Assembly: GCA_014871385.1 (NCBI GenBank)
Contig: CM026426.1
Coordinates: 75,802,934 to 75,866,933, forward strand
Direction of reading: 5' to 3'
Source: Ceratodon purpureus
Lineage: Eukaryota; Streptophyta; Bryopsida; Pseudoditrichales; Ditrichaceae
DNA length: 64,000 bases
The notes beneath the pieces were generated by a model. The model saw only the letters and a list, made by a program, of their open reading frames with translations. It was not told where the DNA came from and did not search any database. Position numbers and translations under genes: made by a program. This document shows positions 780-51,003 of the stretch, piece after piece (the stretch's first letter is position 1; each line of letters begins with the position of its first letter).

Positions 780-3700
780 TTAATATCGACGGTATGTTTC
801 ATAATAGTCTGAGTCTTCATCACCTAGATCCAATGTATTATCAACAGCAGCCTCCAAATGTAGGTACTCCTTAACTGCCTGGTTATATCTCCGCTTCGTC
901 TTCCGTTTCTTTGGGGAAGGTAATGCAGCCTGGTGTCTTGCTGCCTGCTCAGCGTAAATAGGCATGCGGAAGAACGTAGCTACCGGCGACAAGGGAAGTC
1001 GGGCCACTCTGCATACGAAGGCAGTATCTGAGAAAAGACGATTCTAAGCCTGACTGTTAGAATCACAAAATGTTCAAAATTTCTGTCTAATACAAGACCT
1101 GACGACTACACTCAGTGCCTGCTCTTCGGTCGGATTTCCGGAGGATGGTAAGCCAGATCTTCTTCTCCAAGCAGGATCGGAGGAACCTCGTCATCGTCGT
1201 CGTCGTCGTCATCGTCTTCTTGGTCACTGTGATGGCCCCCGGCAGGTGCACGGGGAACCAAGTCAGATCTCATCGGAGCAAGAAGTTCCTTGAATATGTC
1301 CTCGTCCTCCTCAATAGCGACAATGTGACGGCCACGATTGCGACAGACTTGTATGGAGTCGCCTACAAAAGTCGACAAAGAAGGGAGTTAGTATTAAGGC
1401 AAACTACAATCTGGAAGTACGGGAAAGTCAGTATCATAAGAATGTAAGGCCGTACCTGTTCCCGCCGTGAGGTCAACCACAATGCCTCCAGGGGATGTGC
1501 AAGACAAGACGAGGCAGCCCCAGAAATACTCATCAAGTTCCTTAGGACCACGCCAAGGCCGATCGCCGTTCATCCTTCACAGTCTTGGCGTTAGCCGAGT
1601 TCATAAGGACGTTTCCCTTAACAACGTCAATATCTCCACTGTGGGTTGGCTTCAGAGTGAAGGCAGAGTTCCGAGTGCCGGCGGAGAGAGATGCTGGCCT
1701 GGGATCCGGAGTGCATCTGACATAAAGACCCATCCCTAAAAAGGTTAGTGGTCTCAACCCTAGATGGAACCCGAAGTGGCAGTATGTTGAAGCCGGTCCA
1801 CTCCTTAAACATCTTGAACCCGAGGCTTGGGCAGAAGGACCTGATAGTCTTTCTTGTGGAGTTATCGTCAGTGTAAACAAAGACAAGGGCGCCATCATCG
1901 TGCAAGAAATTATGGGCAAACACGAACGTGTTCTTGAACCAGTCCTTGTGAAGGACATTCCACTTAGGGACATCCGAGGCCGTTCTTGATATGCCTGGTA
2001 CCGGAGAGTTGTCCGGAACCTGGGCTACTACAAGGTCCACCATTCCGTCCTTCATCTGATTCCTCCCATAAACCCGGCAGGTTCTATCATAATTGCACTG
2101 GCTCGCGAACTTGTACACCGCATCGAACTTCGATTTATCGATCATACCATTCATGATCAAATCGAAAGTATCGTACTCCAGCTCCTTCGGTTCGTCAACC
2201 AGTCGAACTCAGGCTGAGACAGAGTAAAATCTGTCCCAGAGGAGTTCCCTGATGGCGAAGGTCCATCCAGTCTACGTCTGGACTTGGGAGATTTAGGGGA
2301 CCTGTTGTCCTCTTCGGTTATCACCGGGTGACCCTGCAACTGAACCAGTGCCACCGTCTTGTGAGGCAGTGGTCCTCTGCGCTACGCGTCTTCCTAGCTG
2401 CGCCTGCGATTTCTTTCTCCTCTGACCAACTTTCGGGTCCTCCGGTGCAGCCTCTTCGACGTCAGGTACTTCCTCCGGAGTGGCGTTAACAACACCTAGT
2501 CGTCTCTCAGATCTTCCTCCTCGGCGGGGCAGAAAGTCTTTGCACACTCGATGTACCAACCGCATTCCTTCAGATGCGCTGACGGAAATGTGATCTTCTG
2601 ATACTCCGTGAAGATGAACGAGTCATGGACCAGGCTCAGTCTGGGTATCCATCCAATCTGGTTCTTCCGTGATCGCCGCCTTTGGCATCAACTCCCTCTT
2701 GTAGTATCTATAAAACAGAGGGAATTGGGTCAGATTTCTTTATCTGCGCAAAGGCCAAACTTAACAAAAGCCGACCAAGGTTTTGATACTCACCGATAGA
2801 TAAACCGGCTGACGATGAGATGGCCCTTAGGCACCTGGTCCCAAGTGTCGTTCCGCTGGAATGCATGTTTCCCACCAAAGACAGCTGGAAAAGCTTTTTG
2901 CCAAACCTTCTTCTTCCAGTAGTTCAGGTACACTTGCCAGGACTTCACTTCCTTAGTCCAGTCTGGAACCGGATCTTCAAGCAGGAATAGGCTCAATCTT
3001 CTCCGTGATCTCGTCCTCCAGCAGCGCATAGAAGCATGCTTTGTGCAGCCAAGCATGAAGTTGAGACTCACTGCACGAAGACCTCGGAAAACTGTTTGCA
3101 GCCCTGGTATTATCAGAGCCGTTCCACATCTTCAGCCAACGCACTTTATACATCCCCTTCACGTTGGTGGTCGCAATAAGCTGCAGTTTGTCTAGCCCCA
3201 TCTCGCACTTCTGATTAGGGCGATGGTTGTAATGGTTCCGAATCTGAAAGGACGTAAACCCAAACAACGTAAGAATCAAAGTCATGCCATAACAAACGCT
3301 CATCAGGCCATTCCACCGTTGCAGCTACACCACATCCTGGAGGCTGTTAAATAACGTCATTGACCAAAACAATCGATCCTTCCAGGAAATCTACAAATTC
3401 AAATGGCTTATCAATGCCGAACATGACGAGCCACCTGTCTTTGCAGCTCCCCTAGAGGGTCAAAATATTTTGGACAGTAACGTTCTACTAGTCATCATTT
3501 GAAATTTAAACACATCCAACCTAAAGTTCTAACTCATCAAGCAACAATCAAGTAGCAATATAACACCCAAAATTGACTAAGTGGCTAGAAACCCGACCGC
3601 GCCTCTGAGGCCCGGAAGGGGCTCTCGGTACCGAGAGACCCTTCCCAGCCTCAAAGGCGCGGTCGGGATTTGGTACCTAGGGACATCATCGGCCCCTTCG

Positions 3701-6700
3701 GGCCGGAAACCCGACCGCGCCTCTGAGGCCCGGAAGGGCTTCTCGGCACCGAGAGCCCCTTCCGGGCCTCAGAAGAGCGGTCGGGTTTTCGGCCCGAAGG
3801 GGCACAATCTGGCCCCCTTTAATTGTAAAAGGGGACGGAATGGCCCATCAGGCATAAAGAACTCCATTATTGGGTTCTTAATTAGCCTGGTGGGCCCTAT
3901 AAGCCCCTTTGGGCTCAAAGGGGCTTGTTAAGGCCCCTTGGGGCCGAAAACCCGACCGCGCCCTTGAGGCCGGGAGGGGCTTCTCGGCAGCGAGAGACCC
4001 CTCCGGGCCTCATGGGCGCGGTCGGGTTTCCGGCCCGATGGGGCCTTAACGGGCCCCTCTCAGCCGAAGAGGGGCCTGTAAAAGCCCCTTGGGGCCGGTT
4101 CCCCGACCGCGCCCTTGAGGCCGGGAGGGGCTTCTCGGCAGCGAGAGACCTCTCCGGGCCTCATGGGCGCGGTCGGGGAACCGGCCCCAAGGGGCCTATA
4201 CAGGCCCCTCTTGGGCTGAGAGGGGCCTGTAAAGGCTCCTTGGGGCCGGTTCCCCGAGCGCGCCCATGAGGCCCGGAGGGGCTTCTCGGCACCAAACCAG
4301 ACCTCAGGCGCGGTCGGGGTAGTAGAAGTAAGGGCCTCAACCGGGCCTCAATAAAGAAAAACAAACTTACTGGCAGAAATCTAAGTAAAGAATGTCAAGA
4401 AACTACATACCTCTACGATAAAATCCTTCCCGTTCTTAGGATTTGCAACGGCTTGGAGCTTGCTAAAAAGCTTGTTAAGGGCTACTTTTTTCTTTAGAAT
4501 CAAATTGAATATAACCTCACGTAAACGCTCCCCTGTTTGCTTATTCAGCGGCGTCGTCTGCTTGTTGTGATTGCATGCTTCCTTGCCTGCACCTGCTATT
4601 TCTTCCTGTCGCATTCAACCAAGAAAGTTAGTTTATTTAATTATTTCGACATACTCTATAAATCAGACAGGAGTGAAAAAGTCTAAAGGATTTACCAAGA
4701 AGAGGTGGTTGACCATTGTCTCCGAAGACAATGGATACCAAGTATTGGTCGACTTGTTCTTCTCCCTCAGGTACTCTTCCTTGCTGAGGATATTCTCAAA
4801 ATACGTTATGGGTAGCAGCCCATACTTGTGCACCATCTCAATCTGGTGCAAGACATTTGTCTTGACATGCGCCTGCTCATTTGACCTGTCACGTCGTATG
4901 ATATTAGATATCACGAACTTCATCTAATGAAATCGACGACTTAGCATTGAGTAAGAACTTGAAGATCTAGTCTCGGAATGGTACTTACTTGTTAACTGAA
5001 TGCATGGCCCTGAGAATACTTGGATACAGATTCTTATGGATCTCAAGGACCAAGCAATCTGGCATACCGTGAAGGCGATGCCAGTCCATGTTGCCCATCT
5101 TAGCTTCATCGATGTAGCGCTTCCAGCCCGTGTAGCGGTGATTGCCATCGTAAATGAAAAACATCTTTCCGCAAAGTGGCTTCAAATCGGGGTCAGAATT
5201 CAATTCTAACTCGAATTCATTATCCAACTGATCCCATGCCGAACTCCATTCCCGTCTGATTTCATCTGTAACCAGCTGCTCCTTCTCTTTCATATCGGTC
5301 AGAGCCACATAGAACACTGCTGACCCTACTCTGTACCCGGATCGGAACTCGCTCTGCAACCGTAAGACCTCAGACTCCAACACTGGCCTGACTTCGGGCA
5401 CACTAACCATGCGGCATAAAGGAATTCTCAACCTCGAGAACTTCTCTATCGGCAGTTTCCGACTCCGGTTGACTGTAACAAAGATGTTGTTCTCGAACTC
5501 CTTGATCATCCGAGCCTCTATCTCCGCTGGTGTCACACCCTCGTCCTTTCTAAGAGGGTTTTCCGGCAATTCCTCCCCCTTCTTAACCCGCGGCCATGTC
5601 AGCTTAGCCGGCGGCATCTCTGCATCGTCCTCCTCTTCCTCTTCTTCATCCACCAAGGGATCTTTCTCTTCCGCCTCCACCTCGGCTGTCTTCGCCCTCT
5701 TCGGTGAAGGTGTACTCTCCAATGTATGCTCCGCACCATCGTTCTGGCCCTCGGCCATCGCCGTCTCCTTGTTGACATCGCCTGCCAGTTCCTCCCGTTC
5801 AGACTGCTTCGTCCCCTGCAGGTCCATGCTCTCGTCCTGCCCCTCCCCTCCTTGCCTCTGCCCAGCAGCCACGACCTGCGTCTCTTCTACAGCCGCCTTC
5901 TGCGTCTCCTCCACAGCCGTCTCCTGCGCCTCCTCCTCTCCTTCTTCCTGCAACAATGTGTCGCAACCTAACTAGTCAGCTGAGTTGAACCCTTTCTAAA
6001 ACCCTAGATACATACAGTGGAACTGGACGCTCTGACGATGCCCTAATACCTTTTCCTGCCCTTACTTCAAGGAGTACTATCTTACCTGCTCTCGCTGGAC
6101 AGCGGACTCCGCAATTCTAACCTTCTTAGACTTCTTGTGCTTTTCTGGACGCTCCTCCCTACTTGGCCGCTTCTTACTTTTCCTTTCACTTTCTGATGAC
6201 CTGTCATCTCCAGCCCTCTTCTTTGTGCCCTTCTTCTCACTTCCTGGTGACTTCTCATTTACGGACGACCTCTCCTCCCCATGGCCCTTCTTAGACCTAC
6301 CCTTCTTCACCTTCCCTCCATACTTAGGGTTAAACATGGCGACAAACTATGTAGACCGACCCGCACCCTACAAACCCTAACGACGTCACCCTAAACCGAA
6401 CCCTGACTGCACTACACTCACACACACAAAAACCGCAACGCAGTGTAAGCCAGGCACAGCAAGGCTGCGAGCTAAGAACACCACGAAGGGGCACAGAGAG
6501 ACTGAGCATGGAGCTTCTCCCCCTTCTTATACCTGGCCTCAAGAGCAAGGGCACACAAACTAATGATGTCTACAATTAACACACGTACCTCTAAGCACTC
6601 AGGTATGGTGAGGGGAAATGATTGCTGGAGCGGCGTCACACACTGCGATGGTGATGTCTCACACAACCCGCCCCCCTTTGCTACTCGAGGTACTGCTATG

Positions 6701-6903
6701 ACGGGAAGTTTTGCGAAGTCCTTACTCAATGCCTTCACGGTCCCGCCAAACCCCTCAACACGTCGCCTCCGTTCCTCAGCCTGTCTCATCCTCGAAGCTG
6801 TCAGCTGCTTCGAATTTGAAAACAGCTTGTCTCTCCCCTTCCTCTTTCTCTTTCTCTCTTTCACAGGAGTGGCGACCACTTCAGTTGAATCATCGACATG
6901 CAT
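780..6903 (-). pseudogene. ParB-like / DNA methyltransferase-like fusion, copy 1 (element 1), frameshifted
   Basis: Multi-exon gene read leftwards. A basic first exon (6903 to about 6589, KERKRKRKGR stretch, ends at a GTACGT donor) is followed by a Lys/Ser-rich exon (6337-6087), then 5947-4996 with an acidic region and the ParB-like domain: IPLCRM box, and GKMFFIYDGNHRYTGW near 5118-5171. Further exons are 4885-4696, 4605-4411 and 3243-2794, then downstream pieces. The methyltransferase-like part has VAQVPDNSPVPGIS (about 1998-2035) in place of the DPPY loop, and VVDLTAGTG split by an intron (about 1456-1483 joined to 1362), followed by GRHIVAIEEDE. The last exon ends at TAA at 780. Frames switch near 2980, 2630, 2490, 2190 and 1585, so the C-terminal half looks dead while the ParB exon is open. 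It lies head-to-head with the transposase at 7316. Exon 1 linkage and exact breakpoints are uncertain. Confidence 0.75.
3589..4323. repeat. GC-rich array of five large hairpins inside an intron
   Basis: Five successive imperfect palindromes of about 80-118 bases lie at 3589-3671, 3691-3803, 3930-4047, 4082-4197 and 4232-4323. Each starts near CCCGACCGCG and returns through CGCGGTCGGG, with an inner arm GGAGGGGCTTCTCGG and a short CGGCACCGAG-like loop. Outer arms GGCCCCTTGGGGCC extend units 2-4. GC content is far above the surroundings. The array fills the intron between the exon ending at 4411 and the exon starting at 3243 of ParB-methyltransferase copy 1. Pro/Arg-rich open frames across it are by-products of composition. 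Confidence 0.85.
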
Positions 6904-7315
6904 CTGTGACACTATCCTGCTCTCTTGTCACACTAAACATCCCGCAGAATGCCGCTCATTGCTTTGATATATCTCTGGTCAGGATGAGTGAAGTTATTTT
7001 TGACGCTTCCAACTCTTTTGGCGCCCTTCCATATAAAGATGTCCTTAATTCAAAATTCCTAGAATTGGCGGCTGAGATCCCTCCCCTTTTTCCCATGTCA
7101 GGGAATTTACTCTGACACGGTGTACCAGCCCTAATTATATTCAGTGGCAATCAAGAGACGGCTGGCCCTTATTATAGAGCCTTGTAGTGGCTGGTGATTT
7201 GTCGCATGATCGTCCTTTCAAGTAAACATAGGGGGCCCCTAAACCCAGTCATCATCCTCTCTTCAACATTCGTCTCTGTTATGACAAGTTGAGATTAGCA
7301 AATTCAAACGTATAA
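6904..7315. promoter_or_regulatory. Divergent intergenic region between the two genes of element 1
   Basis: These 412 bases separate the first ATG of ParB-methyltransferase copy 1 (minus strand) from the first ATG of the transposase (plus strand), so promoters for both directions are expected here. AT-rich TATA-like words occur (CCATATAAAG near 7029, TTATTATAG near 7169, TATAAATG overlapping the transposase ATG), but none can be assigned with confidence. Element 2 has 442 bases in the same position. Confidence 0.5.
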
Positions 7316-10300
7316 ATGCAGTGGAAAATGCTTCAACAACCCTCTCAATTCTGCACTTCGTCGATTGTGTCGCTCTTTCTGAACTCCCTCCGCCATGGCG
7401 CTGCCTGTCCCGGCTCAGTTCCTAGGTTCCGTTTTTCTTTACGCACATGGCGTTGGAATTCCGATACGTTTCGAGTAGATGATGATGGGTACGCTCTTGT
7501 GTCATGTGAGCGTCTTAGTCTTAAGTTCCAGTATCAAGAGGACACCATTAGCGTCGAGGAGGAGATTTGTGATGACCTCACTGGAGAGATCACACATACA
7601 CTAGGCCAGGTCTCATTCGTGGACGAGAGGGATTGTAAGATCTCAAGGCTCATGCCTGGTAGGTATAGAGTCTACGGTCTCACGGATTCCCAAATGGCTG
7701 CGTCCACCGAGATCCTGACCCCCAGACGGTCCTCTACTTGCACCATCCAGACACCAGGAGCGGTGGACGTGAAGTTGAAGACCGACTCTGCCTCAGATAC
7801 GCCTCTCCTTGCCAAAGTAAAAGTCGAGCCGGGCTTAGATACCCCGGTTATCAATCTCTCCTCTGACGATGACAGGAGCCCGCGGACTCGAAAGTCATAC
7901 AGATATATACCCGCCGGAGAACCTGTCCGTCCCGAGGCGGCTGTGGACACTCGCGCTTCGAATCTCATGGTCATGCCCCCTACTTTGGACGAGTCCGTCA
8001 ATATTGTATCGCTGTTGAAGAAGCTTACTTCGCGGCCGGGTAAGAAGAACCTCCTGAAGAAGTTAGACTACGACTCCATCCGACATGAGAGAGTGGAGTA
8101 TCTGCCGGCGGAGTTCAACGGCGACGTCATCTTCGAACTGCCACCTGTCGGATCCTCTGCCTCACAATCAGCCGCCAAGTCCATGGAGGGCATGGATAAG
8201 AGGTACGATGGGCACGTGTGGATGAAGATGATCACCACCAACATCTCCAACAATATGGGCCTCTCTTTTCGGTCGTCTTCATGTGCGGGCCATTTGCGGT
8301 GCGAGAACAAGGACTGCGGGTACCTTGAGCGCGACCATCGCATCTTTGACGTGAATGAGACCGAATTTGACGGATGCACGTTGCAGGCGTTTGTTGTGGG
8401 TGAAGAGGCTCCGAAGGAATCCACTTTGGTCTGCAAGGTATGTAAGGAACCTCCCGTATGCGTTGCCACTTGTAGAGCAAGGATATTTTATGTTTCGGGC
8501 AAAGGCAATAGGACACGGGCGTGCATCCACGTAGGATCCCACAACCACCCTGTCAAGGTGGGAGACTACCGAGACATTAAGGTCGAGATAAGTAGTTTGA
8601 TAGAAAATCAGATCGAGAACACGCCCAAGGCTACGAAGAGCGCCGTTGTACTAGAGGCCAGCAAGGACCTGATTGGTAGTTTTTTATTACAATCGGAGGA
8701 TGATCCACCCAAGACGCTCACTCTTCAAAAGCTTTATCCTGTGCTCGATAGGTGCAAAGATATGGCGTCGCCTAACATTCGGAACAAGGTCGTTACTTTT
8801 AGGTACCTCAGACGGTATGGGGTGATGGACAGCATAACGAAACTGCGGGGACTCAGCACATGGGATTTTGTACATAACAACATGTTCCCTGGCCAAGGGT
8901 CAGAATTTGACAAGGTCTACGTGTTCAAAATGTCGGAGCTGGGGCCCGCCAGTGGTGTCGATCTTGTGAAGAGAATGCAGCCGACGGGGGATCTGGAGCT
9001 TTCGTGGATGATGTTTGACCACGTCAGGCGCATGCAAAATTGGACAACCATGGCATGCCACGTGTATGACTCCACGTACTGCCGGGTCATGACGATTGCC
9101 TGCTGCGACATGCAATCTGAAGACGCCGAAGCCCAGATGGTGTTTTGGAAGAACCTCAATGCAGTCATGAAGAGACACGGCCTGGAAAAGCTGAACTTCA
9201 AGGGCTTCATGGCGGACAGCGCCGAGGCTAATTGGAATGCGGTTCGGGTGGTATACGGCAATGGCAACAAGGAAGATCAAATGGAGGACCGGGAGAGGAC
9301 CTGTCAATATCATTGGACCCAGTCCATGGTGCTTCATACCAAGAAACACGTCGCCAAAGAGTTGTGGGATCAACACAAAAAGATGTGTCAGCAATACAGG
9401 AAGGCAAGATCAATGGCGGAGGCCGATGCTCTTTATCACGGGATAAGGGCTTGGTGGGCATTTGCGTGGGCAGTGTCCGAATTTGCCTTATTGAAACTTG
9501 ACTTATGGCTCTTATTCTGGCATTATCGATATCGCCAATGGGGTGGGTTTATGATCGAGGTAACCACGCCACCCACTATTGTTTTCTCTTTCCCCGTACA
9601 TGCTCATCGTAGTGACTCATTAATCGTTCATCCGTTGTTGGATCTCAAAAATTCTCGGAGGCGGAACTCGCGGAGATGCCGTACTGCAACCTCGCGGAGA
9701 CGGTCCACAACAAGTGGCTTCAAGCATCCGGCAATAATGGCAGTGATCTGTACGTCGCCACCGTGGACGACTTTATCCGTGCTTTTCTACAGGTTGTGAA
9801 TTACTACCAGTACCTAAAGGGCGACGTGGAGGGTACTGGCCCCAGCAAGAAGGAGCTGAGGCTACGATCCGCAGAACGTAGGGCGAAAAAGACGGGCGAT
9901 CCAAAGGTTCTGGAGGACCCCATGCTGGACATGCCTGGCGCCGATGAGTTTTGTACGCGTGTCCCACATCTGCCAGGGGAGGAGGTGTTTGGTTCGCGGA
10001 AACGCAAGCCCGACTTGCCTCTTGGCGCTGAGGAAGAGTCACATAGGCCAGATAAGGTAAACTTTTCGCATCTTCGAGTCAGTACCAGATGTGTCAGAGC
10101 TTGCGTGGCTCCCATGCCGATCATCGTCGAGGAAGGCGACCGCGAGGTTGAAGCAGCTCATCATCCATCGCCACAGATGGATTCCGTCATCGCTTCACTC
10201 TTCAGCGAAGGAGGCGTGCGTCACGTCTCGGCTGTGGAGTAGACCAGAGTGAACGTAAAGCAGTGGCACATTGCTCGACTGCCAAAGACTTCCGCAAAGT

Positions 10301-11151
10301 GCTGTTGGGCGCAGAGGGCCGTCACCAATAAGAAATGCACAAAGAGGATTGTCAGGGGTGCTAAGCCCACCCCTGCCCCGACCTACAACGGTGTATGGCA
10401 CAGCAGAAGGAGGAACCTCAACATATCCAAGGACTTCTTTTTCTGCCCCGACGACATTGAGAGGTGCGTGAAGGGGACAAGGCGCAAATGGGTGAACTGG
10501 TACGATTTATCGAGAAAGGAAGGATTTCCACCCATCCCAACAGTATGGCCTGTGAAACTTGGGACGAACCTGAAAGACTGTGAGATTCTTGCCCTGGAGG
10601 AGGCAGGGTTTCAGCTCCTACAGAAGAAACCAGTCTCGCCTAGGAGGCTCTTCACCTCCGACCCCCCTCCGCGAAACCTAGACTCGGTTCCGGTGCCGGC
10701 AGAGGCTGACTGGTACCCTGGAAAGAGAGACGGGAAGATTGTCAAGCAGACCGTGACTCGACCCAATCCGCAGCAGAGGCTGTCCATGGCCTCCTCCGAC
10801 TCCCTCAAAGCACGACTGCGGTCTATCACCATGATTCCTCATCCCGGCCACGGCTGCATCATCGCGCTAGACTCCGGGGCTCCTCCCAATGTGACAAAAT
10901 ACCGGATCACCATCAGCTCCCTCCCCGGCTGCACATGCCCACCATTCTAGAAAACAATGACGAAGTTCCGTGGGACGGTTCAATTTACATATTGCAAACA
11001 TATGTATTACGTCCTCTTAAAGGTATGCCTGCGTGACCCGGATGTGGAACTTTTCATCCATGCACCGACCTTTAGCTTCAACGAAGTGAAGTTACTCCTC
11101 GAGAGTGGAATCTTGACACACCCCTTGGCGGGGCCCTACGAGACAGTCTAG
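7316..11151 (+). pseudogene. MULE-like transposase, copy 1 (element 1), two in-frame TAG stops
   Basis: Cut-and-paste transposase of the Mutator-like type, read from the ATG at 7316. Visible in order: a variable N-terminus with AASTEILTP; a zinc-cluster region with CAGHLRCENKDCGY (about 8281) and CKVCKEPPVC then ACIHVGSHNHP (to about 8552), resembling WRKY/GCM1-type fingers; a DDE core with CHVYDS (about 9056), FMADSAEANWNAV (about 9207), CQYHW (about 9303) and CNLAETVHN (about 9682); and a C-terminal SWIM finger CTCPPF...YCKH (about 10930-11000). An intron fits 9560-9660 (GT donor after ATCGAG). The frame is otherwise continuous but carries TAG at 10240-10242 and 10948-10950, where copy 2 reads through. 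It is divergent from the ParB-methyltransferase gene. Family assignment rests on motifs, not a search. Confidence 0.8.
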
Positions 11152-11816: not shown

Positions 11817-12214
11817 GGCAAAAACGGTATGCACCCCACCCCTAAACCCTAAACATTCCACCAGCTAACAAACGAGAGAGAGAGAGCAAAGGCCCCAGGG
11901 TCATCCATATATTCCAGTGAAATCACAGAAGACCCCGTCATTCACGCCCTGCCGCACAATTTCGAGACCAGTAGTTGGTCGGCAGTCCCAAAAAACCCTT
12001 TAACAAAACCCAGAAAGTATCCCACATTCAAGGAATATTCCTTTGAATATTCAAAAAGATTCTATTTTTCTCATCTTACATTCTATTTTTAGTTAAAAAA
12101 TTCCATTTTTAGAATCTGCTCTCCATTTTCCACTCTAAGAGCAGAAAATCTCTGCTCTCTGCTCACCGCTCACATACAAGCTTCCCTCGGATCAAGCCAT
12201 CGCCGAATTCCCGA
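11817..12214. promoter_or_regulatory. Intergenic region upstream of ParB-methyltransferase copy 2
   Basis: The left part carries the telo-box-like motif, a GAGAGA run near 11873 and the presumed promoter of the minus-strand gene. The right part, 12050-12190, is AT-rich and then turns into TCTGCTCTCTGCTCACCGCTCACATAC-like sequence; the last part, CCGCTCACATAC, recurs near 18352-18366 in front of unrelated DNA. No N-terminal basic exon like those of copies 1 and 3 was found here. Confidence 0.4.
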
Positions 12215-15200
12215 ATGTCGGTGCCCCTGTGCAGGATGATCCCAATGGCAAAGGTTAGACCAGTGGGCGAAGTGTGGGTACAGCATTTGGAGCGGGAGTT
12301 CGTTAAGGGATATAGAGATGGCGACCGCGTCATGTACATCTCTATGTACAACAACGAGGAGCAGACAAGAGATGTTACGGATGAGGTCATGGCTAGTTGG
12401 AGCCCATTATGGAGGGACGCGAATGATGCTTTTGAATTTGAGCTTCAAAGTGACGAGGAGTGGTCGCAGTTCTCGGGGAAGATGTTTTTTGTCTGGGAAG
12501 GTAACCATCGCCTCTCAGCATGGCTTCGTCATATCAACAAGCACCACGCAGACGACCCGTTATGGCACATATCTGTGCACTGCATAGTACTCGACCCCCG
12601 TGGCCATGTTGGCAATCTTCTTCACGCAATGCATGACATCAACTGGTATGCACTTGTTTCATTTTTCCTGTTTTTTCATTTGTTAGCCTATCTCATCTCT
12701 ATCATTCATAATACGTATTTTGGTTTATTTTCAGGTCGACTGAGAATGACCACGTGAAGAGTAATCGTCCTGCAAAACTATTTCGAATACGCTCATTCGG
12801 AATGATGAAGCTGGAGGAATTTAAAGACCTCCTCAGTCCTGAAGAATTTGACGCATGTTTGAAGAACAAGCCACCTAATCCCTCCTGGTTTCCCTTGACA
12901 ACTAAAGTTTTCATCGCATTTTTGTACCGAGTAAGTCCTACCTCCTCTCTCTATTTGCTTCTTATTATTCAATACTCATGAAATTCCCTAAAGCTTAATT
13001 ATCTTTCTACAGCGGGAACTCGCTGTGGCCTCCGATGAAGCAGCCAGGGCCTACTGCAACAAGACACCCGAGGATGAGCAGTCTGCAAGTGCAGTTTGGG
13101 ATGTCATGAATGAGGCATCAGATAGAATGGTCGAAGCCATCAAGAAGAAGGACTTTACCAAGTACTTGGCTGTCGCAAATCCCAAGAATGGTGACGACTT
13201 CCTCAATGAGGTGACTCACTGATCATTGTTCAATTCACTGTTTCGTATGACTTCAATAATTTATGTATTAATCCTTTTTAAAATTTTGGTGCTTCTTGCA
13301 GATCAATCGCCATTTCAGTCTCAACAATAAGCGTGAGATGTCGCTCGAAAAGCTTCAGAGGATTGTTCCACCGGCCGTTGAGGCCAAATACAAGGCTCGT
13401 TGGTTGAAGTGGTGGAACTCATCCCCGAGTGCTCGAATGTCTTACAGATTTCTGCCATCTGAATTCAAAGACACCGAACTCGACCCATGGTTGAACAAAG
13501 CTTCATTCTGGGCTGGGGTAATTTCCATACAAAATCCTTTCCAATTCCTTATTCCTTTATTTTTTTACCGTATTCCTTCTTCGTTGCTACTTATATGAAT
13601 TTTGTATTACAGTTGGAGGAAGCCGTCATCCACGAAGTCGAGGAAATATTCAAAACGGAGAACCTCGACATCAATTGGATGGCATTTCCTGATGTCCAAC
13701 AGCCGGGCGATTTAGTCGAGAGTTCACGTATTCTGTTGTGGGACAAGGCCTTCCCTACGTTCATTGGAAAAAAGGCTGATAAGCACTTCGACAAGAAGTT
13801 TGACTTTGCAAAATTCCCTGGAACCGCTCAAGCTGTCAAGCGGGTTACTTACCGGTACGTGAAGTAACTTAATCGCATTTCCATTTCATAATTTTCATTG
13901 CAATTGTTTCTTATACTTACCTTCTATATGTTTTCCCATAGGTACTTCAAGCGAGAGCTTCTTTTGAAGGGGGCCATCAGCGTTCAGCACCGCGCCAAGT
14001 ACTTCAAGCTTTGGACGCAGACAACCTCGGACTAGTGTATGTACTCTCCCCAGCAGATAAAAAGGTACAAAGCTGCTCACCTGGATGCTGGATGCTGGTA
14101 TCTTGATTGTATTGGTGGTTTCACTATTGACTCGGAGGCGGACGTCAAGATGCTACACGATGGAGGTGAGGTGGTGGTCGAAGCCTCCATGGATGGTGCA
14201 GACGAAGACGAAGGACAGGAGGATCAATCTTCTGCTCCTCCACCGAAGAGAGGAAGAGGAAGGCGACTAAAATCTCTCCGTTCTCAGTCAGAGGCATCAC
14301 AGCAAACCGGTGCGGCGTCTTCCCAGCCAAAACAGAAGGAACCAGAGCCCTCTCTAGGTAATATCGTTACGAAGCCTTCTTCAACTTCTTCGCCGGCTCC
14401 TTCTTCGATCAGTGCTTCCGAGATCACCAGAGGTCTCCTGGAGCAGAGGAAAACCAAGAAATTTCCGCAGAACACCTCTTCCGCTGGAACTCCCAATTGC
14501 TCTCAGGTTTATGTCATCAACTCCTCTGTGAATTCGGTTCTATCCCGACAGAAGGAACTTGAAGACGTTGGTGGTAATCCCGAATGGAACAAGGCTCTAG
14601 ACATCATTCGAATGGTATGATTCGTTGTTTCATGCTTTCCCTTGAATACTTATATTCTGTAAACCTTATATTTTCTAACTCTGATTTCTTGTTTGATCAA
14701 GTTTGGAGGAGGCCGCGAGAACCGAGTTCCTGATAGATGCAAAGAGGAGAATCACTTGGGATTCGACTTGATCATTGCCGACATTCCTGAGAATCTTCCG
14801 GTCCCCACGATATCCAATCCTGCCTACGTCGCTCTGACTTGGAACAAACGCGGTAAGGATTATTTGGAAGACCTCTTCGAATTTGCAAGACATTTCTTGC
14901 AGTTTGATGGTGCTCTCTGCATCATCCACAACAACGACCAACGTTTGGCTTCAAAGATTTCCGAAGTGGCTACTGTTGATGGCTTCGTGCAGCACCGAGA
15001 CTGGTGGGGCTTCAATGCACTAGGCTTGGCTCACCCTACGATGCCCAGCTCCTTGGTATGTACATCATAATCTTTGCTTGTCTTTGCAATCTACTAAGTT
15101 TTCTTTTTAATTACACTCACATATTTTTGTGTCTCGCAGTCTCTTCGATTCTGGGTGCGCGTCTTCATTCGTGGTGGTCACCCCCCATCCAAGTTTTCTT

Positions 15201-16045
15201 TTCAAACGAAGAAATTCGATGTCATTTACAACGACCTCCACATTACTGAGAGTGATGCCATTCTCAACTTCACCGATGCAGACTCGTAGCTCATGAATGG
15301 GGAGGTGCCGTGGAGAGGCCCAAGGGAGAAAGCCCCTGAGATGATGCAGGGCATAATTGAGGAGATGACCAAGCCCGGTGACATAGTCTTCGAGTGGTCG
15401 GCAGGAACAGGTAATTCTCCATTAACAGTTTCTGCATTTCCAAGCCTCTGATTTTCTCCACAGGAACTCACTACTTTTCTGTGCTACGTGTTTTCAGGTG
15501 CCTCCCTCAAGGCTTGCCAGAGTATTGGTCGTCATATTATAGCTTGTGAGGAGGACAAAGCCATATTCAACGCCCTACTCAAACCGTATATGGCTACGTC
15601 ATCTGCCATGGGCCCTTCTAAACATCCTAGGCTGGCAGCAGCAGACGAAGCGCCTCCAAAGAGACCAAGACCTGATAAGTGGTGTAAGTCTTCTATTCTT
15701 TGTTCAAATTCTCCAAGCATTGCTTCTCTTTGCAGCTCTACGTACTCGATCTAACCACAATCGGTTCTCTAATGCAGAGTAGTTTTGGCAACACCGCCAC
15801 GTGGGCCAACAACAGTGTCCACTCCATCGTGGCGTCTTCATTCCAGCCCGATTCAGCCTTTTATACTTCCGGACTACGCAGAGGGCTTAGCACAGGCGTT
15901 TCAATCTGGAGCCCTTACGTATGTTCCTAGTCGGCCAACTACTTTTGATCCTAGGGCCCTTCTATTCGTCGATGACGAGGCGGTAGAAGGAGATTCTGAG
16001 TCATCTAGTTCTCAGAGTGGAAGTAGCGATTGTTGCATGTTGTGA
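12215..16045 (+). CDS. ParB-like / DNA methyltransferase-like fusion, copy 2, no linked transposase
   Basis: Ten exons with GT-AG introns fit: 12215-12645, 12735-12930, 13013-13210, 13302-13517, 13613-13854, 13942-14614, 14702-15055, 15140-15410, 15498-15678 and 15778-16045. The N-terminus has a ParB-like box (VPLCRMIPMAKVRPV) and GKMFFVWEGNHRLSAW, with EGNHR where copies 1 and 3 have DGNHR. A central KWWNSSP/LWDKAFP region is shared by all copies. The methyltransferase-like part has LIIADIPENLPVPTIS (DIPE at about 14780-14791), then PWRGPREK and VFEWSAGTG joined to GRHIIACEEDKAIF, the order of a beta-class N4/N6 enzyme. Two TAG codons interrupt the frame, at 14033-14035 and 15287-15289, so as written it may be a pseudogene. 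The basic N-terminal exons are missing. A nuclear role is inferred only. Confidence 0.75.
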
Positions 16046-16331
16046 GTTTGAAGGAGGCTTCGGTCTTTCATTGTTTTCATCTGAATTGATTTGATTTAAT
16101 TGGAGTTCATTGCGTAATCCTTCGTCTACTCTACTGCAAAGAACCTAAACTTGTTATGACTCTCATTTCCAATTCGTCTCCGCGTATGTAAAGGATGAAA
16201 TGTCACAACTGTAATGCTCAAAATATAATATGAAGAATGAAATGTTACAAAAGAAATGCTCAAAATTTATATTGCGCTGTAATTTATATCTCAATCATTC
16301 AAAATCCCACATTTCCATACCCATAGCTATG
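16046..16331. other. AT-rich 3' flank of copy 2
   Basis: Probable 3' UTR and spacer. It contains a short repeated phrase (GAAATGNTACAA...AATGCTCAAAAT at about 16196-16227 and 16236-16267). No gene seen. Confidence 0.4.
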
Positions 16332-29734: not shown

Positions 29735-30075
29735 TTCGTTGCGGCCCTCTCGCATTTCTTTGACTGTGCTATTCGTGAGGGGTTGGTCGGGTTGGTCTGG
29801 TGGAAGAGTGGGTTCCACAGATGACGAAGGGTTTTCTACTGTAGTCTCCAATTTCGCTCAATCGTGTGGACTTGAGCAACCTCGTTGCGCTGCTCACAAG
29901 GTGGCTGTTGGCTGAGCCTCGTGAAGTTGTTCAGAAGGTGTTCACTATGCATCCCCAGTAACGCGACGGTGTCTGGTGAGTGATTATCAGCACTTCCCCA
30001 TTCTGTTGCGTTATTTTTTTTTTTCCTTTAATGTCATTTCCTAAATTCGGCTTGTTTGTGGCAGGGGGTTATGGT

Positions 30076-31413
30076 ATGGATCCATTTGCAGAACCAAGAA
30101 CGTCTGTGGCCTTTAGTGCCTGGATCATGCTCCTGTTGCTTAAGATACAACAGAGTATCCAGGTACCAATGCTTCCGGCTGTTGAAGAGGAATCGGATGA
30201 TGGATTGACTGCCATTGTCCGTAATCTTGATGAGTCCTCCTCTCATGCACATGATCTGGTTCGTTCTACCCTACACAGTTATAGGTTGTTCACCAATTTC
30301 AGTTTTTTTGATGATGAATTACGGTATTGGGTGAAATCCAGATCAACGACATGGTTTTCTCGGTTCCTGGTAGAACAATACGATAACACTCGGTGGATTT
30401 CGATGTTTCAAATGACCAAATTGGCTGTCTTTGCTTTATCGGACTTGTTGAGACCGCATGTGGAGAAAGCAAATACAAAATACAGGGTGGCCATTCCGGT
30501 ACTCATTCGGGTTTGTTGCACCTTGTTCAAGCTAACGCATGGAGCCAATTTCACGGTCTGTAGTGAGGTATTTGCAAGAGGCCGTAGTACTGTGTCGACT
30601 GTCTTACGTGGGGTTGTCCATGCCATTAACGACACACAGAGGCATGAAATTCTTGGCCGAATGGTGAGCATTTACGAGAGATGCAAGGTAAATTCCAATC
30701 TCTTTGTGGATTGCCTAGGGGCAATTGATGGCATGCATGTGCATATCTCAAAGCCTCAGTACCTCCTCGCCAATCACTACTATTTTAAATCCGGTGGTTA
30801 CACCATCAATTGCCAAGCGGTAGTTGACAGCGAGAAGCGGTTTATAGACTTGTATTTGGGTATGCTGGGAAGCACTAATGACTCTCGAATGCTGAGGCGT
30901 TCTTCTCTATACAATTTGGCCTCCCATCGGCAGCTGATGGAGGCTGGGCACAGTGTTGATGGATTCATGCCATATATTTTCGGAGACTTCGGGTACCTAC
31001 TATTTCCATGGCTCATGGTACCTCACAAAACGCAAGGACAACTCACTGTGGCCGAGACTCTGTTCAACAAAAAGCTTCGTCGTGGGCGTTGTGTGGGGGA
31101 AAATGCTTTTGGCATACTCAAGCAAACGTTCACGGAAGTGTTGAACAAATCTGAGTTGCATTTGACATTCCTCTCTGATGTCGTTCTTTGTTGTCCTATT
31201 CTCCACAATGTGCTTCACGGGCAGTCTCATGCAGATGTGGAGGAGCTTCTAGAGATTCTCCGAAATGAAGGTCTTGAAGGATGTGTGGACGACGAAGAGG
31301 GAAGGCTTGCAGACGTACCTGCAGTGGATGACGACGATGTCGCACAAGAGGAGGCAAGTGCAAAGAGAACAGCAATCGGTTTACACTTGACAATGCAAAA
31401 GCATGCACAGTGA
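30076..31413 (+). CDS. PIF/Harbinger-type transposase (HARBI1-like, DDE_Tnp_4)
   Basis: An uninterrupted frame from the ATG at 30076 (445 residues) follows a likely splice acceptor TTTGTGGCAG at 30064. The DDE signature of Harbinger transposases is clear: LGAIDGMHVHI (first Asp, about 30727), YLGMLGSTNDSRML (second Asp, about 30880), FGDFGYLLFPWLM, then RRGRCVGENAFGILK (Glu, about 31100) and LHNVLHG. An N-terminal Thr/Ser-rich region with TVCSEVFARGRSTVSTVL is the helix-turn-helix-like segment typical of the group. Length matches the family. The C-terminus is acidic. It is convergent with a Myb/SANT-like gene at 31606-33075, the usual two-gene make-up of PIF/Harbinger elements. Terminal repeats were not found. 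Confidence 0.92.
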   Translation: MDPFAEPRTSVAFSAWIMLLLLKIQQSIQVPMLPAVEEESDDGLTAIVRNLDESSSHAHDLVRSTLHSYRLFTNFSFFDDELRYWVKSRSTTWFSRFLVEQYDNTRWISMFQMTKLAVFALSDLLRPHVEKANTKYRVAIPVLIRVCCTLFKLTHGANFTVCSEVFARGRSTVSTVLRGVVHAINDTQRHEILGRMVSIYERCKVNSNLFVDCLGAIDGMHVHISKPQYLLANHYYFKSGGYTINCQAVVDSEKRFIDLYLGMLGSTNDSRMLRRSSLYNLASHRQLMEAGHSVDGFMPYIFGDFGYLLFPWLMVPHKTQGQLTVAETLFNKKLRRGRCVGENAFGILKQTFTEVLNKSELHLTFLSDVVLCCPILHNVLHGQSHADVEELLEILRNEGLEGCVDDEEGRLADVPAVDDDDVAQEEASAKRTAIGLHLTMQKHAQ

Positions 31414-31605: not shown

Positions 31606-33075
31606 CTACAGCTCATGGGGGTTGTTGTGCCCTGAAGCTGGTTGGCCACTTCCATGGGCCAGGTCAACCCCTGCATTCTGCTCCTTCTCTGCGCTTTGGT
31701 CAGTAATGGCACTCTGTTCCGAGCTGTCTCTCTCAAAACCCCCGCTGTTCATAAAAATTCCTCCAAATCTACTTGAGCGGTTGCTGTGAACATGTGGGAG
31801 CTCCGTTGGCCTGGCAACATACTCTTGTGTAGCAGAAATGATGTTCGTAGTAGCATAGAAGTCAGCAGTTTCTTTACCTTTAGGGTTGTTGGAAGGCTTT
31901 GCAGCTGAAGCCTGTGCTTCTCCCGCAGACATGTTCAGTCCATGCCCAAGCACAGTGGACAACTGTGCGAGGCAGTGGACCATTTCCTCTTGTTTCATAA
32001 TGGCTAAACGAGCATTTTCATTAGCAGCTGTTGCGTGCTCATACATTCTTCTATCCTTTTCACGTTGATACTCCATCTGCTCGGAGAACAATCTCAATTG
32101 TACTTCAATCTTAGACCGCTCAAATTCGCGGCTTGCTTCCGCTATGTTCTGCATTTGAGCGGCCATAACTGCGCCAATTGACTTTGTAGCCTCTCCAATC
32201 ACTGCGTGTCCGCTGACATTCTTCCTACGTACACCGGTATTTCCCGGACGTCTGTTCAGAGCAGAGAGCGAGTTCTCTGAAGAACTTAAAACCTATGGCA
32301 TGATGCCTCCTGGTACACCGTTAAATGGCTTGCAGCTTGGACTACCGGAATTGTCTACTGGCCTGGAACTTGGGCTGCCGGTATTGCCTTGTGAAGCTAC
32401 CCTGCCTGCAGGCATGTAACTCGATCGCAGGGGGGACTGGGACGGTGACGAATCCTCCATGGTATCTGCAGGCTCCTGCTGAGACATCTCAAACGGGTCG
32501 TCAATATCACGTTCAGAGTCTCCATTGTTGTTGTCTTCCGACATTTCCTGTTGTGGAGCAGAGTAGTTCACATCTGTTGGTGATAAGAGATCTCGAACAT
32601 GAGGCGGTTGAATTTGAGGGCGTTGTCTAAACCATTTATGAATGGCGTTGAAGATGTCTTGTGAAAACTGCCGTGGTAGTCCCTCTGCCTTGCGGTCCGC
32701 TGAGTCCAGTTCCCAAAAATCCGTTACGTTCCTCCCTGTGCAACACATATAGTCAGCAATGCGTTTATAATCGGGAATTAATTGATTCCATTTTGTCTTA
32801 TAAGCGGGACCATCTCTCGAACATGGAGAGTAACCAGAACGCATGACATGTTGAGAGACACGGAGCCACTTGCTCGTGTCGGGAGTCATGAGGTCCCGTC
32901 CATCCACACTGTCCAGCTCTTCAAGGAACATGTTTTGCTTTGCTTCGATAAAAAAAAAAATCTCATGGTTCAACCAGTTCGGTCCCTGGTCCTTTCGTGC
33001 TCGCTTTCGTCGAGGACCACCAGTCGGTGTAGTTGGCAACTGTGGTGGCCGGCTCCCAAGAAGTGACCCTCGCAT
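31606..33075 (-). pseudogene. Myb/SANT-like (trihelix) partner of the Harbinger transposase, one TAG
   Basis: DNA-binding accessory protein of a PIF/Harbinger element. From the ATG at 33075 a basic stretch (RRKRARKDQG) leads into a trihelix/Myb-SANT-like domain: NWLNHEIFFFIEAKQN...KWLRVSQHV...TKWNQLIPDYKRIADY...FWELD. A Ser/Pro/Asp-rich linker follows. A TAG at 32293-32295 then interrupts the frame, but the same frame continues open to 31606 through a coiled-coil-like segment (REFERSKIEVQLRLFSEQME). Read through, the product would be about 489 residues. The stop may be a mutation, a sequencing error or an unseen splice. In the family, the Myb-like protein recruits the transposase to the element ends. 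Confidence 0.8.
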
Positions 33076-34118
33076 TCTCGGGGCGATAGGCACCCGATTC
33101 TGTCCTAGCGAGCCGAGAGGGAGCGAACCTACAATGTTGGTGTCATCACTTACTGATTACCTTGATTTCAATTCATCGAGTACTGTCAGCGGTACTTGGA
33201 ACTACAGGACTCTGTTCCTCGGAAATCTATTACAAGGTACATTGTCACAGAACACTCATGTTGGACTCAAGTAAATTGCAATGTATATGTGAAGTAGAGG
33301 CGACTGGAACTATGCAAAAGATTTTCAAATTCTCAGTCTAAACAGTGGAGAGGCAAATCTTACTAGGGGCATGGAGCGGCTTCTGAAGACGAAGGTGTGC
33401 GATTCCAGTGTTCTTTGCATTGCAAGGATATTCATTATCAGTCGATGCTTGCATTGCATGGAGGCCGAGAATTCACTTGGTGACGGCGTTGGAGAGATGG
33501 GCCTGGGAAAAAGCTGCGCTCTTTGAGGCCGATATTTACAGACCGCTCTTTCGTAATGTCCCAGTTGTAGCCATTTTACTTAAAAACGTGTGCTTTGTTC
33601 TAAAATGTTCTAAATCAGAAGATTTTCACTAAGTGCCCACTTATCCTTATCCCGGAGTTCTCTCTGAAGTGAAGTACTATAAAGTTGCTAATACCCGGTA
33701 TTATCCACTGCCACATACGCTGCCAGCTAGGCTCGGCAATTACTAAACCACGCTGGTGGGAACCCCATGGAAATAACAACCCCTAAGACCGTGCTTGAAT
33801 CGGCACCTACCTACAGGTGACAACACACCTTTAGGCCGCTTCAGACTGTGGCCAAACTTCGAGAGGAGAAGCCTCCCAACCAATGAAAATACAGAAAATC
33901 ACAAAGTTTCTCCTCTCCACCTTCACACTAAGGCCAAGGTCAAAAGGAGGTCGCCTCCAAAAAAGTTTGAGTGGGAGTATTTTGGGGAATTATGGCGCCA
34001 AGAGTTTCTCTTCTTGACCAAAGTTTGGGTCAAGCAAAATGCTCAATCCAAACTTTCATCGAGAAGAGAAACTTTTTTCCATAAAAATATGTGCATGAAG
34101 ACAAAGCTCATGGGCTAT
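33076..34118. other. Gene-free spacer right of the Harbinger pair
   Basis: No recognisable gene. A 108-residue open frame at 33795-34121 has a segment (GRFRLWPNFERRSLP) that resembles one encoded in inverted orientation at about 35355-35410, so it is probably debris of a repeat. Confidence 0.35.
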
Positions 34119-49000: not shown

Positions 49001-50269
49001 GGAGAAGGTTTTCGAGTGCCTAGAGAAGGATTCACGCGGGAAATCGAAGGTGACGGAGCCCGAGTTCATTGAAGAATCGGAAGAGGAAGACTCTGAACCC
49101 GAAGGTATGCCATTCTAACTCCACTTATGAGGTATTATATTATATAGTTCACATTGTAATTCAGTTGTAATATGAACCGAATGAATGGAAAGTGTGTGAT
49201 TTGTCCACAAGGTTTAAGTTCTAACTGTTCATGTGGGGTTGTCTCAGAGAAATGTCCTGATCTACCGTCCAACTCGGAGACTACAATAAGTGGTAGCAAT
49301 AGTGAGAGCGAAGAGAGCGACGATGAAGACGATGAGGGAGAAAGTGGCCACAGTCCCCAGGTTCAGCAGGTACAAGAAGAGAAGCCAAAAGAAGATAAAG
49401 CAACGATGTTGGACATCGAGAAGAAGTTCAGGGATGAGGGACTCATTCAGAGTACAGCGGTTCAGATGGTGCTCACACAAGACATAGAAGCCGTGGAACG
49501 CCCACGTGAAGAAGACCCGAGGAGTGACGCTGGTGAGGGAGGTGTGCCAAGACGTAACATAGGCTTAGGGTCCGGGGAGGTTAAGAGAGATAGTGACATG
49601 GAGTTGGACAGTGAAATAGAAGGAGGAGGGGAGACTAAGGGTAAGGTAGGGGGGGATGTTCATGTACTGAAGGTGATAGGAGAGGAGGGGTTAGACGAGG
49701 GGCAAGAGGAGGTGCTGGAACAGGATAGCCTAGAAATTCGGGGCAGACCTTGGACCTCCTTGGTTCAGTCGAATATGGCTTTGGATGTGCCCACCAACCA
49801 GGATAAGGAGTGTGAAGAAGGAGAGAACCCGAAGGGCATGGAGCAAAGTATCGAGGGAGATGAGGCCGCCCAAGGTGTTCAGAACGAGGCCAAGGAGAAA
49901 CAGGTGAAGGAGAAACAGGTGAAGGGGAAGAGAAAGTCCTTAGAAGGGAGGAGGCTTCAGGAGGAGTTGGAAGAACACGGTGTGATTGGAATATCAGGTG
50001 GCGGAGAACACGGGCCAGCTCAGAGGACCCGGGCCAGTAGGAGATCGAGCGAAGGTGATTATCTGGCAACGCAACGGAAGTCTAAGGGTAGAAGGCAAAA
50101 GGACTGTGCGGTGGAAAAGGGTGGGCAGAAGAAATCTAGCAAGAGAAAGTCAAAGGAGACCCCTTCTCTTCGTAACTGCCCCAATGTTGGTAGTCCCGGA
50201 TGCAGCCCAAGCCCAAGCGGGAAAAAACTCAGCGATGCTACTGTGGCAGCGGCGAGCAGTGAGCAGTGA
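46059..50269 (+). pseudogene. RING-like zinc protein with coiled coil and acidic tail; one frameshift, one TGA
   Basis: Exons fit 46059-46783 (with a +1 shift near 46530), 47162-48034, 48733-49111 and 49248-50269. The N-terminal part is basic, then has RFLDIDELQELIDGLKSPPDVLTWEDFRDRY. After the shift comes WVVLEYQKNLVNWALYGQETNNRQRRKYEEDL. The second exon gives a long charged helix (LLMEIEGLKLDEELAKKAKD...) and a RING-H2-like cluster CALCG...SCKHMYHPFC...KCAAANC (about 47740-47870). The last exon is very acidic, then basic (KGKRKSLEGRR). A TGA at 48978-48980 interrupts an otherwise open third exon. A ubiquitin-ligase role is possible from the zinc spacing but unproven. The two lesions may be real decay or sequence errors. 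No transposase domain seen. Confidence 0.6.
48035..48732 (+). promoter_or_regulatory. Intron with a dense cluster of GTAC (AGTACT) motifs
   Basis: About 20 GTAC words, mostly within AGTACT/AGTACTT, lie in under 700 bases, where about three would be expected by chance. GTAC is the core bound by plant SBP/SPL factors and the core of copper-response elements. Function here is unknown. Confidence 0.55.
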
Positions 50270-51003
50270 GCGGTGAGCAGCCAAAAATCGCACCGGGGGT
50301 CAAAAGTGAGCAGACAAAAAACGCACCGGGGCCAATATTTTCGTGTGCAAAAAACGCACCGGGGACAGCGTTCGACCTATGACCGTGGAAATTTGTCGAG
50401 CATGTGTGGCATATCACCGTGGAAATTGCGAGGTACCGCCCCCGAATACTCGCAGCGGAAAGACTATAAAATCCGACAGACGCTCTTGGGCGACCATAGA
50501 ATGTTGAGGTACCTCAGATGTGCGCAAGTGATTAGCGGCATGGGGATGGTGAAAGAGGACTGTGAAGTTTGGGTTCCGAGTGCGGAAGAGTGCGAAGTAA
50601 TTGATATCCTCTCAAACCTAGGTGACTATTCGATTCAGTCTGGAAGGGAAGTGGCTGTGATCGACAAAGCGGAAAACATGGAGAACTTGATTCCTCCAAG
50701 AGCAGGCCCATATTCTCAGCTTCGCGGTTCGAGGAACATTCCAAGGATCGCAAGTCCGTGTTGGAAGCCAAAGATGATGAGACCGATCGTGACAAGGACG
50801 TTGAGATGCGCGGCCAATCCATATGCTGGTGCCGTTGGGGACGGAAAGATGTACGTATTGCAATTGCCCAAGCATTTAGAGAGACCAACAACGCCAACCA
50901 TATCGGCGAGTGATACTGGAATCAATCTTGAAGAACACCAAGGATGGGAGAGGCTAGACTTTTCTGTTGATGGAGAAGATAGTATTGCCGTTGAGCAGTA
51001 GTA
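50270..51003 (+). CDS. Unknown open frame downstream of the RING-like gene
   Basis: One frame is open for 242 codons to 51001. It opens with three repeats (KSHRGSKVSRQ, KTHRGQYFRVQ, KTHRGQRST) that come from a DNA repeat CGCACCGGGG at 50290, 50321 and 50352, followed by MCGISPWKLRGTAPEYSQRKDYKIRQ. From about 50670 an alternative forward frame (ASRFEEHSKDRKSVLEAKDD) looks equally protein-like, so the correct frame is unclear. No domain recognised. The start overlaps the end of the preceding gene. Confidence 0.3.

Follow-up and report, generated by a model that had tools for sequence, protein, structure and literature searches.

Background

Mutator-like elements (MULEs) such as MuDR and VANDAL encode accessory genes, namely mudrB and VANC, in addition to their transposases. 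A gene coding for a ParB-like protein of 1104 amino acids (aa) with an N4/N6-methyltransferase domain, located on the strand opposite to that of the transposase, has been published for Sola1-1_Ec32, a giant transposon of 21.5 kilobases (kb) from Ectocarpus (Dinatale et al. 2025, PMC12477816). In the parts of that article considered here this protein is proposed to methylate the DNA of its own element, similar transposon proteins are cited from green and red algae, and giant EnSpm elements are mentioned for the red alga Bostrychia (Petroll 2025, via PMC12477816). Here we describe a 64,000-nucleotide stretch of the genome of the moss Ceratodon purpureus (contig C6, positions 75802934-75866933; this whole stretch is referred to below as the window), which contains two units, each composed of a gene for a MULE-like transposase and a divergently oriented gene for a protein with ParB-like and methyltransferase-like parts (ParB-MT). 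Related units were sought in the entire assembly of 362,488,568 bases in 151 contigs. The moss pair is a new version of an accessory-gene type that has already been published (PMC12477816), and the suggestion of a preliminary description of the window that such an accessory gene would be new is not supported.

As far as Sola1-1_Ec32 is described in those parts of PMC12477816, the moss elements share with it their giant size, the placement of the accessory gene opposite to the transposase and the methyltransferase domain, the ParB-like part being recognized here by a motif. They differ from it in that Sola1-1_Ec32 has a Sola-1 transposase and represents the one brown algal family for which the gene is described there, whereas the moss elements have a MULE-like transposase, 10-base-pair (bp) target duplications and at least four families. 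Furthermore, the protein of Sola1-1_Ec32 is predicted to methylate, whereas the moss proteins have an altered motif IV, the two having been compared by description only. The green and red algal cases cited in the same source involve similar transposon proteins but algal hosts. No report of ParB-MT in a MULE-like element or in a moss was found in the literature searched, coverage of which was partial and makes this weak evidence; the excerpt of PMC4469406 likewise contains no ParB-type transposon protein.

Two divergent gene pairs in the window

The two transposase/ParB-MT pairs of the window are each divergent, and the units lie in opposite orientation to one another:

1229-5500, minus strand: unit 1 ParB-MT gene, delimited by homologous blocks, with QVPD where phage relatives have DPPY/F
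within open reading frame (ORF) 4985-5956, minus strand: unit 1 ParB-like exon
7478-11118, plus strand: unit 1 transposase gene (family C) in two homologous blocks (7478-9553; 9652-11118), its end region having a SWIM-like motif
53513-57074, minus strand: unit 2 transposase gene (family A), exons 57074-55050 and 54961-53513, broken in the window
58844-64000, plus strand: unit 2 ParB-MT gene, exons 1-5, the last exons lying past the window edge
58844-59832, 59949-60144, 60203-60421, 62355-62573 and 62691 to beyond 64000, plus strand: exons of the unit 2 ParB-MT gene
59390-59833, plus strand: unit 2 ParB-like segment with the motif DGNHRTRAW, presumably ParB-like by this motif, without a profile match

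The gene models were built on a copy on contig C4 with open frames, splice sites being picked by hand. In this intact copy the transposase gene has two exons encoding 1157 aa and the ParB-MT gene seven exons encoding 1192 aa. When projected on nine other copies, the transposase model is free of internal stops in eight (one of them one base off in length), and the ParB-MT model is free of stops and length changes in six (copies c2 and c9 being partly covered), with stops in c3, c10 and the window copy. Unit 2 as found in the window is thus a damaged copy, with three stops in the projected transposase and one in ParB-MT. Stop-bearing copies among those listed seem, by eye, to be concentrated on C6, and the autosome-sized contigs to have mostly stop-free copies. 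The head-to-head arrangement originally noted for both units stands as two divergent pairs, while the intergenic gaps of 412 and 442 bases given with it hinge on the gene models: in unit 2 the transposase ATG (57074) and the first ATG of the ParB-MT model (58844) are 1.77 kb apart, and a further upstream exon is possible.

The transposases of the two units are only 44-47% identical, which rules out a recent duplication of one unit inside the window, and their ParB segments are 36% identical. Judged by this divergence, unit 1 (family C) and unit 2 (family A) are separate families. The earlier suggestion that the pair moved or was duplicated as a unit therefore survives in its first half, as the two genes do move together (see below), and fails in its second, the units being too diverged for a recent duplicate.

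Pairing of the two genes across the genome

All co-occurrence counts in this article refer to rows listed, that is, they hold among the matches listed. Family A was defined by at least 80% identity to the window copy and family D by at least 89% identity to copy D10. For the pairing counts 126 of the 150 rows of one list were used (the rest being family C) and 76 of another (the rest being family A or B); the count for families A-C took 68 of the 150 ParB-D rows and the later family D counts took all 150.

On this basis a divergent ParB gene was found within 6 kb of 57 of the 66 family A transposases (modal distance 2298 bases), at 2178-2290 bases from 17 of the 20 family B transposases (modal distance 2178-2179), and next to 49 of the 56 family C transposases (mostly at 2692-2719 bases, with two near 7 kb). 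For family D the corresponding figure within 25 kb is 25 of 38, and 24 of 26 pair distances fall at 5.1-9.2 kb, mostly 5-8 kb. Taken together, 148 of the 180 transposases of families A-D have a divergent ParB-MT gene, against a chance expectation of about 0.005 divergent partners per transposase within 25 kb (150 ParB rows), which rules out chance neighbors. The pairing of transposase and ParB-MT is real, and it is the rule for the transposases of families A-D, most of which have the partner. Seen from the accessory gene, a divergent transposase lies within 25 kb of 61 of the 76 ParB-A rows at 89% identity or more and of 52 of the 76 rows of the family C ParB search.

Several counts weigh against extending this association further. 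The remaining 15 of the 76 ParB-A rows have no listed transposase, and a listed divergent transposase within 25 kb is missing from 123 of the 150 ParB-D rows (27 have one) and from 147 of the 150 ParB-E rows (three have one). Another group of transposases shows 79-86% identity to family D. Of its 62 listed copies none has a divergent ParB-E row, and for 60 no ParB gene of A-D is listed in the surrounding 25 kb, which counts against the pairing as a general rule. With many ParB-MT copies and one transposase group lacking a listed partner, it may be that the element can do without an accessory protein in cis.

Element ends and target-site duplications

The termini located in or through the window are as follows:

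50220-50229, no strand assigned: 10-bp target-site duplication, AGTTTTTTCC, flanking unit 2 on its transposase side
50230 to about 69055 (L029 position 5055), minus strand: family A element with unit 2, 18.8 kb, extending beyond the window
12160-12189, plus strand: family C transposase-side terminus, reading ..CATACAAGCTTCCCTCG, common to the copy on contig C8

Long alignments, for most copies on both sides of the genes, connect nine family A loci with the window copy, and all have one common terminus. The window element corresponds to the terminal-repeat pair C6:75853176/75871947, with the 10-bp duplication AGTTTTTTCC and the second terminus outside the window. The family A terminal-repeat pattern was recovered at 104 + 115 genome sites (219), whereas its reversed form, used as a control, gave 1 + 0. 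A set of 100 listed sites yielded 36 adjacent facing pairs within 60 kb, of which 28 enclose both genes, four ParB only, two the transposase only and two neither. The 28 pairs with both genes have a median length of 28.0 kb; 21 of them measure 18.8-32 kb and seven are longer, one of the latter having two copies of each gene inside. Both ends were checked for duplications in 20 of the 36 pairs, picked mainly among those holding both genes. A matching duplication was present in 18 of these 20, its length being 9 bp in one case and at least 10 bp in the other 17. Both genes lie inside 17 of these 18 pairs, and the transposase alone inside one. No duplication was seen at C1:9915523, which encloses just the transposase, or at C7:9804484, which encloses both genes.

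In two family D elements, about 15-16 kb long, terminal repeats and duplications, read by eye, also surround both genes, one duplication being the 10-bp GCATGGAGAG and the other matching at 9 of 10 bp. Element ends falling between the two genes are thereby ruled out for families A and D, in which terminal repeats and duplications enclose both, and in these families transposase and ParB-MT are mobile together. Of the two family C ends, just the one on the side of the transposase was located, and no target duplication was detected in the 6 kb to the left of the window copy; for family B there is pairing evidence only.

The outermost 13 bp of family A are CAGCGATGCTACT on the transposase side, with few one-base variants, and CGGGCATTCTGGT on the ParB side. 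Across the termini compared (L035-L074) these outer 13 bp are conserved for each end and unequal between the ends, unlike ordinary inverted repeats.

Domains and conservation of the accessory protein

Residues 886-1063 of ParB-MT match the N6_N4_Mtase profile (PF01555) with 29.8 bits against a cut-off of 26.7 (E = 7.4e-7), methyltransferase families of PHROG also match the protein (best E = 2.4e-8), and a 65-aa piece around motif I recovers phage DNA methylases at 44% identity (E = 2e-8). At the level of sequence comparison these matches show the C-terminal domain to have a true N4/N6-methyltransferase fold. Across the 59-61 residues that surround motif I, the beta-class methylases of phages (Gordonia phage Hollow gp43, MT835494) are 44% and 41% identical to the moss protein; with 238 and 255 aa they are small single-domain proteins and have DPPF or DPPY, whereas the moss domain is fused and its motif altered. 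In the 15 ParB-MT copies read the position of motif IV is occupied by DIPE in eight copies of family A and three of family D, by DVPE in one of family B and by QVPD in three of family C, and the pattern [DNS]PP[YFW] occurs in none of these 15 copies from families A-D. Motif I is DIGAGTG in family A, DVTAATG in B and EWSAGTG in D. Two observations count against this placement of motif IV: the Pfam match begins past it, at profile position 32, and in the MAFFT alignment DIPE does not fall under DPPF/DPPY. As neither aligned the motif, its assignment rests on spacing and on the preceding hydrophobic strand.

In the N-terminal segment the tetrapeptide GNHR is invariant in nine of nine sequences, and we take it to be the ParB/Srx (GxxR-type) signature, which no profile confirms. 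Profile searches lend this label no support, in that ParB_N (PF02195) has no match in the genome at E ≤ 10 and none of the nine ParB-like segments matches any ParB model. No credible relative of the segment was recovered from the PDB (best E = 0.015), and no viral relatives were confirmed in one scan of viral contigs. The ParB segments of the other families are 36-41% identical to that of family C. The composite name used in the preliminary description is therefore borne out by profile for its methyltransferase half and rests on a motif for its ParB half, with PF02195 giving nothing. The accompanying proposal that the protein may bind or may once have modified element DNA has the methyltransferase fold, which is real, on its side, but motif IV is altered in all 15 copies read.

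Within family A the mean-distance ratio of nonsynonymous to synonymous divergence (dN/dS) is 0.17 for ParB-MT (nine copies, two partly covered) and 0.21 for the transposase (nine copies); given how alike the copies are, these values speak for selection acting on the source elements. In the comparison of family A with family B, dN is 0.15 and dS 1.67 for the transposase, and dS is saturated for ParB-MT. Both genes of family A are thus shown to be under purifying selection and their proteins to be maintained.

Identity of the transposase

The transposases of families A-D have Cys/His-rich N-terminal motifs, a conserved D..D and CxxH, and, near the C-terminus in each of A, B, C and D, a SWIM-like CxCx(n)CxH read by eye; a SWIM zinc finger is common in MULEs but not present in all of them. 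The spacing of D..D and CxxH resembles that of MULEs. No match to the MULE profile PF10551 was obtained in seven scanned proteins or in the full transposase, and a profile-profile comparison with the MULE frames of seven loci of the same genome (an eighth, of 131 aa, being left out) gave probabilities below 1%, with a shallow transposase profile (effective number of sequences, Neff, about 1.5). The PDB yielded no credible relative (best E = 3.2). Elsewhere in the genome there are at least 93 matches to PF10551, and none of those listed lies in the window. Traits of MULEs that are present comprise the duplication of about 10 bp, the terminal repeats enclosing the transposase and the SWIM-like motif, so that the label MULE given earlier has these on its side and the failure of PF10551 against it; the transposase is best described as MULE-like rather than as a MULE proper. 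MuDR and VANDAL are like the moss elements in being of Mutator type with a second gene, their accessory proteins being unrelated and the elements smaller. Target duplications of MULEs are given as 8-11 bp (Dupeyron 2019, PMC6446971).

Tandem arrays and palindromes

Each family contains a tandem array, as scanned in one locus per family, and those of the window are:

3588-4293, no strand assigned: unit 1 tandem array
60452-61177, no strand assigned: unit 2 tandem array in the large ParB-MT intron, coordinates from alignment blocks

The family A array has a period of 149 bp and lies in the large intron of ParB-MT (relative L009); that of family C has a period of 151 bp and lies in the matching place of the ParB-MT gene (relative L075). 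In family B the array (149 bp) is on the ParB side, and in family D (211 bp) it is between both genes (L079 7187-9000, L080 1-560). The family D array contains 11 exact copies of the 22-bp palindrome CTACTGTCGTTGACGACAGTAG at steps of about 211 bp in approximately 11.3 units, many flanking columns of which vary, and its 18-bp core recurs in 10 copies in the second family D element. Ten inverted repeats, nine of them the palindrome, were counted in the first family D stretch, against a mean of 0.6 and a maximum of 2 in shuffled sequences. The family B array has a 14-bp palindrome six times in about 8.6 units. From these features we regard the tandem arrays as candidate binding sites of the accessory protein. 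Other results are unfavorable to this: the arrays of family C have three inverted repeats versus 0.3-1.0 in shuffles, a slight excess; in those of A and B no inverted repeat has arms reaching a length of 8; and a 6-mer common to the A, B and D arrays was rejected, as it is not beyond chance (398 of 500 shuffles). Rehavkus and the aphid Phantom elements resemble the moss elements in having a minisatellite inside and duplications of 8-11 bp, and differ in that their array is placed elsewhere and that the passages of PMC6446971 describing them mention no ParB-MT gene.

Possible function and alternative explanations

On balance, and with some reserve, we favor the view that these are giant MULE-like cut-and-paste transposons with a divergent ParB-like/methyltransferase-like partner, which would be non-methylating and would bind the DNA of the element. 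The accessory protein would have lost methylation, and its ParB-like domain together with the inert methyltransferase fold would bind the element's own arrays or ends. When bound, it might assist the transposase in bringing together two ends that lie very far from each other or, alternatively, keep the element from silencing. The loss of activity, the ParB-type binding, the target sites and the end-pairing or anti-silencing role are all points that we infer from sequence features.

That the accessory protein is instead an active N4-cytosine/N6-adenine methyltransferase marking its own element, as proposed for Sola1-1_Ec32 (PMC12477816), strikes us as rather unlikely. The fold scoring above the Pfam cut-off, the phage homologs, the strong purifying selection, the DIGAGTG retained as motif I in family A and the published proposal itself would all be in keeping with activity, but [DNS]PP[YFW] is lacking in all copies read and motif I drifts in families B and D. 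A transposon-borne partition-like system seems to us improbable; in it the fusion of a ParB-like protein with a dead methyltransferase would occupy the palindrome arrays in or next to its own gene and form a nucleoprotein complex that joins the ends of an element of 15-32 kb or protects it against silencing, and the gene would also be self-spreading, with hundreds of transposase-free copies. Another possibility is that ParB-MT is a selfish passenger of its own, residing in non-autonomous elements that borrow the transposase in trans and paired only in some families. The unpaired ParB-D and ParB-E rows, most of which are stop-free in the ParB exon, and the four terminal-repeat pairs that hold ParB without a listed transposase point in this direction, but 123 of the 142 transposases of families A, B and C are paired, mostly at near-fixed spacing, and the solo copies may be over-counted, being counted only among the matches listed; we therefore hold this explanation to be unlikely.

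A separate matter is whether the transposase might belong outside the Mutator superfamily, to another DDE group with a SWIM-like motif and a 10-bp duplication. This appears doubtful, though it has in its favor the failure of PF10551 and of the profile-profile comparison, the absence from the window of any of the 93 PF10551 matches listed, and the occurrence of an accessory gene of this type in a Sola-1 transposon (PMC12477816). Against it are the length of the duplication, which is inside the MULE range, the terminal repeats and the C-terminal SWIM-like motif, as well as the shallowness of the transposase profile used in that comparison. The D..D and CxxH spacing, resembling that of MULEs, counts in the same direction. 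It is very improbable, finally, that ParB-MT was captured from the host or from a bacterium and is now a dead gene without a role: some of its copies are broken, but its dN/dS is low, several copies have intact frames, and the gene is kept across families whose ParB segments have diverged to 36-41% identity with that of family C.

Other features of the window and of related elements

Adjoining the family C terminus there is a third ParB-MT sequence in the window, which has no transposase of its own, so that not every ParB-like gene there is paired:

12189-16269, plus strand: family D ParB-MT fragment, 92% identical to two full family D elements

On C8, likewise, ParB-like sequence adjoins the family C terminus (ParB segment L078 4370-4840). 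As ParB sequence abuts the terminus in two of two copies, ParB-MT genes or their surroundings may be insertion sites of family C. The family A copy at locus c12 (L031) has, nested within its arm on the ParB side, a piece of family D ParB-MT that stops at the terminus of family D. Family A elements have a further conserved ORF in that arm (L029 2190-2522, L030 103-585), with 45% and 86% identity between the copies compared, and in the opposite arm, that of the transposase, the unit 2 element has ORFs at 50273-51001 (plus strand) and 51795-52469 (minus strand), possibly captured gene pieces. Two other window ORFs, 29980-31413 and 32293-33093, have what we take to be a likeness to a Harbinger-type transposase and its Myb-like partner.

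Implications

The moss elements provide a well-bounded case in which a eukaryotic transposon is served by a DNA-binding/methylase protein of bacterial type, with many near-identical open-frame copies in what looks like a laboratory moss. The change of motif IV in every copy read speaks, for this lineage, against the published idea of self-methylation. According to the portion of a review considered here, DNA transposition falls above a cargo of about 6 kb (PMC6431247). The tandem arrays offer candidate binding sites through which transposons of 15-32 kb may join their ends or escape silencing.

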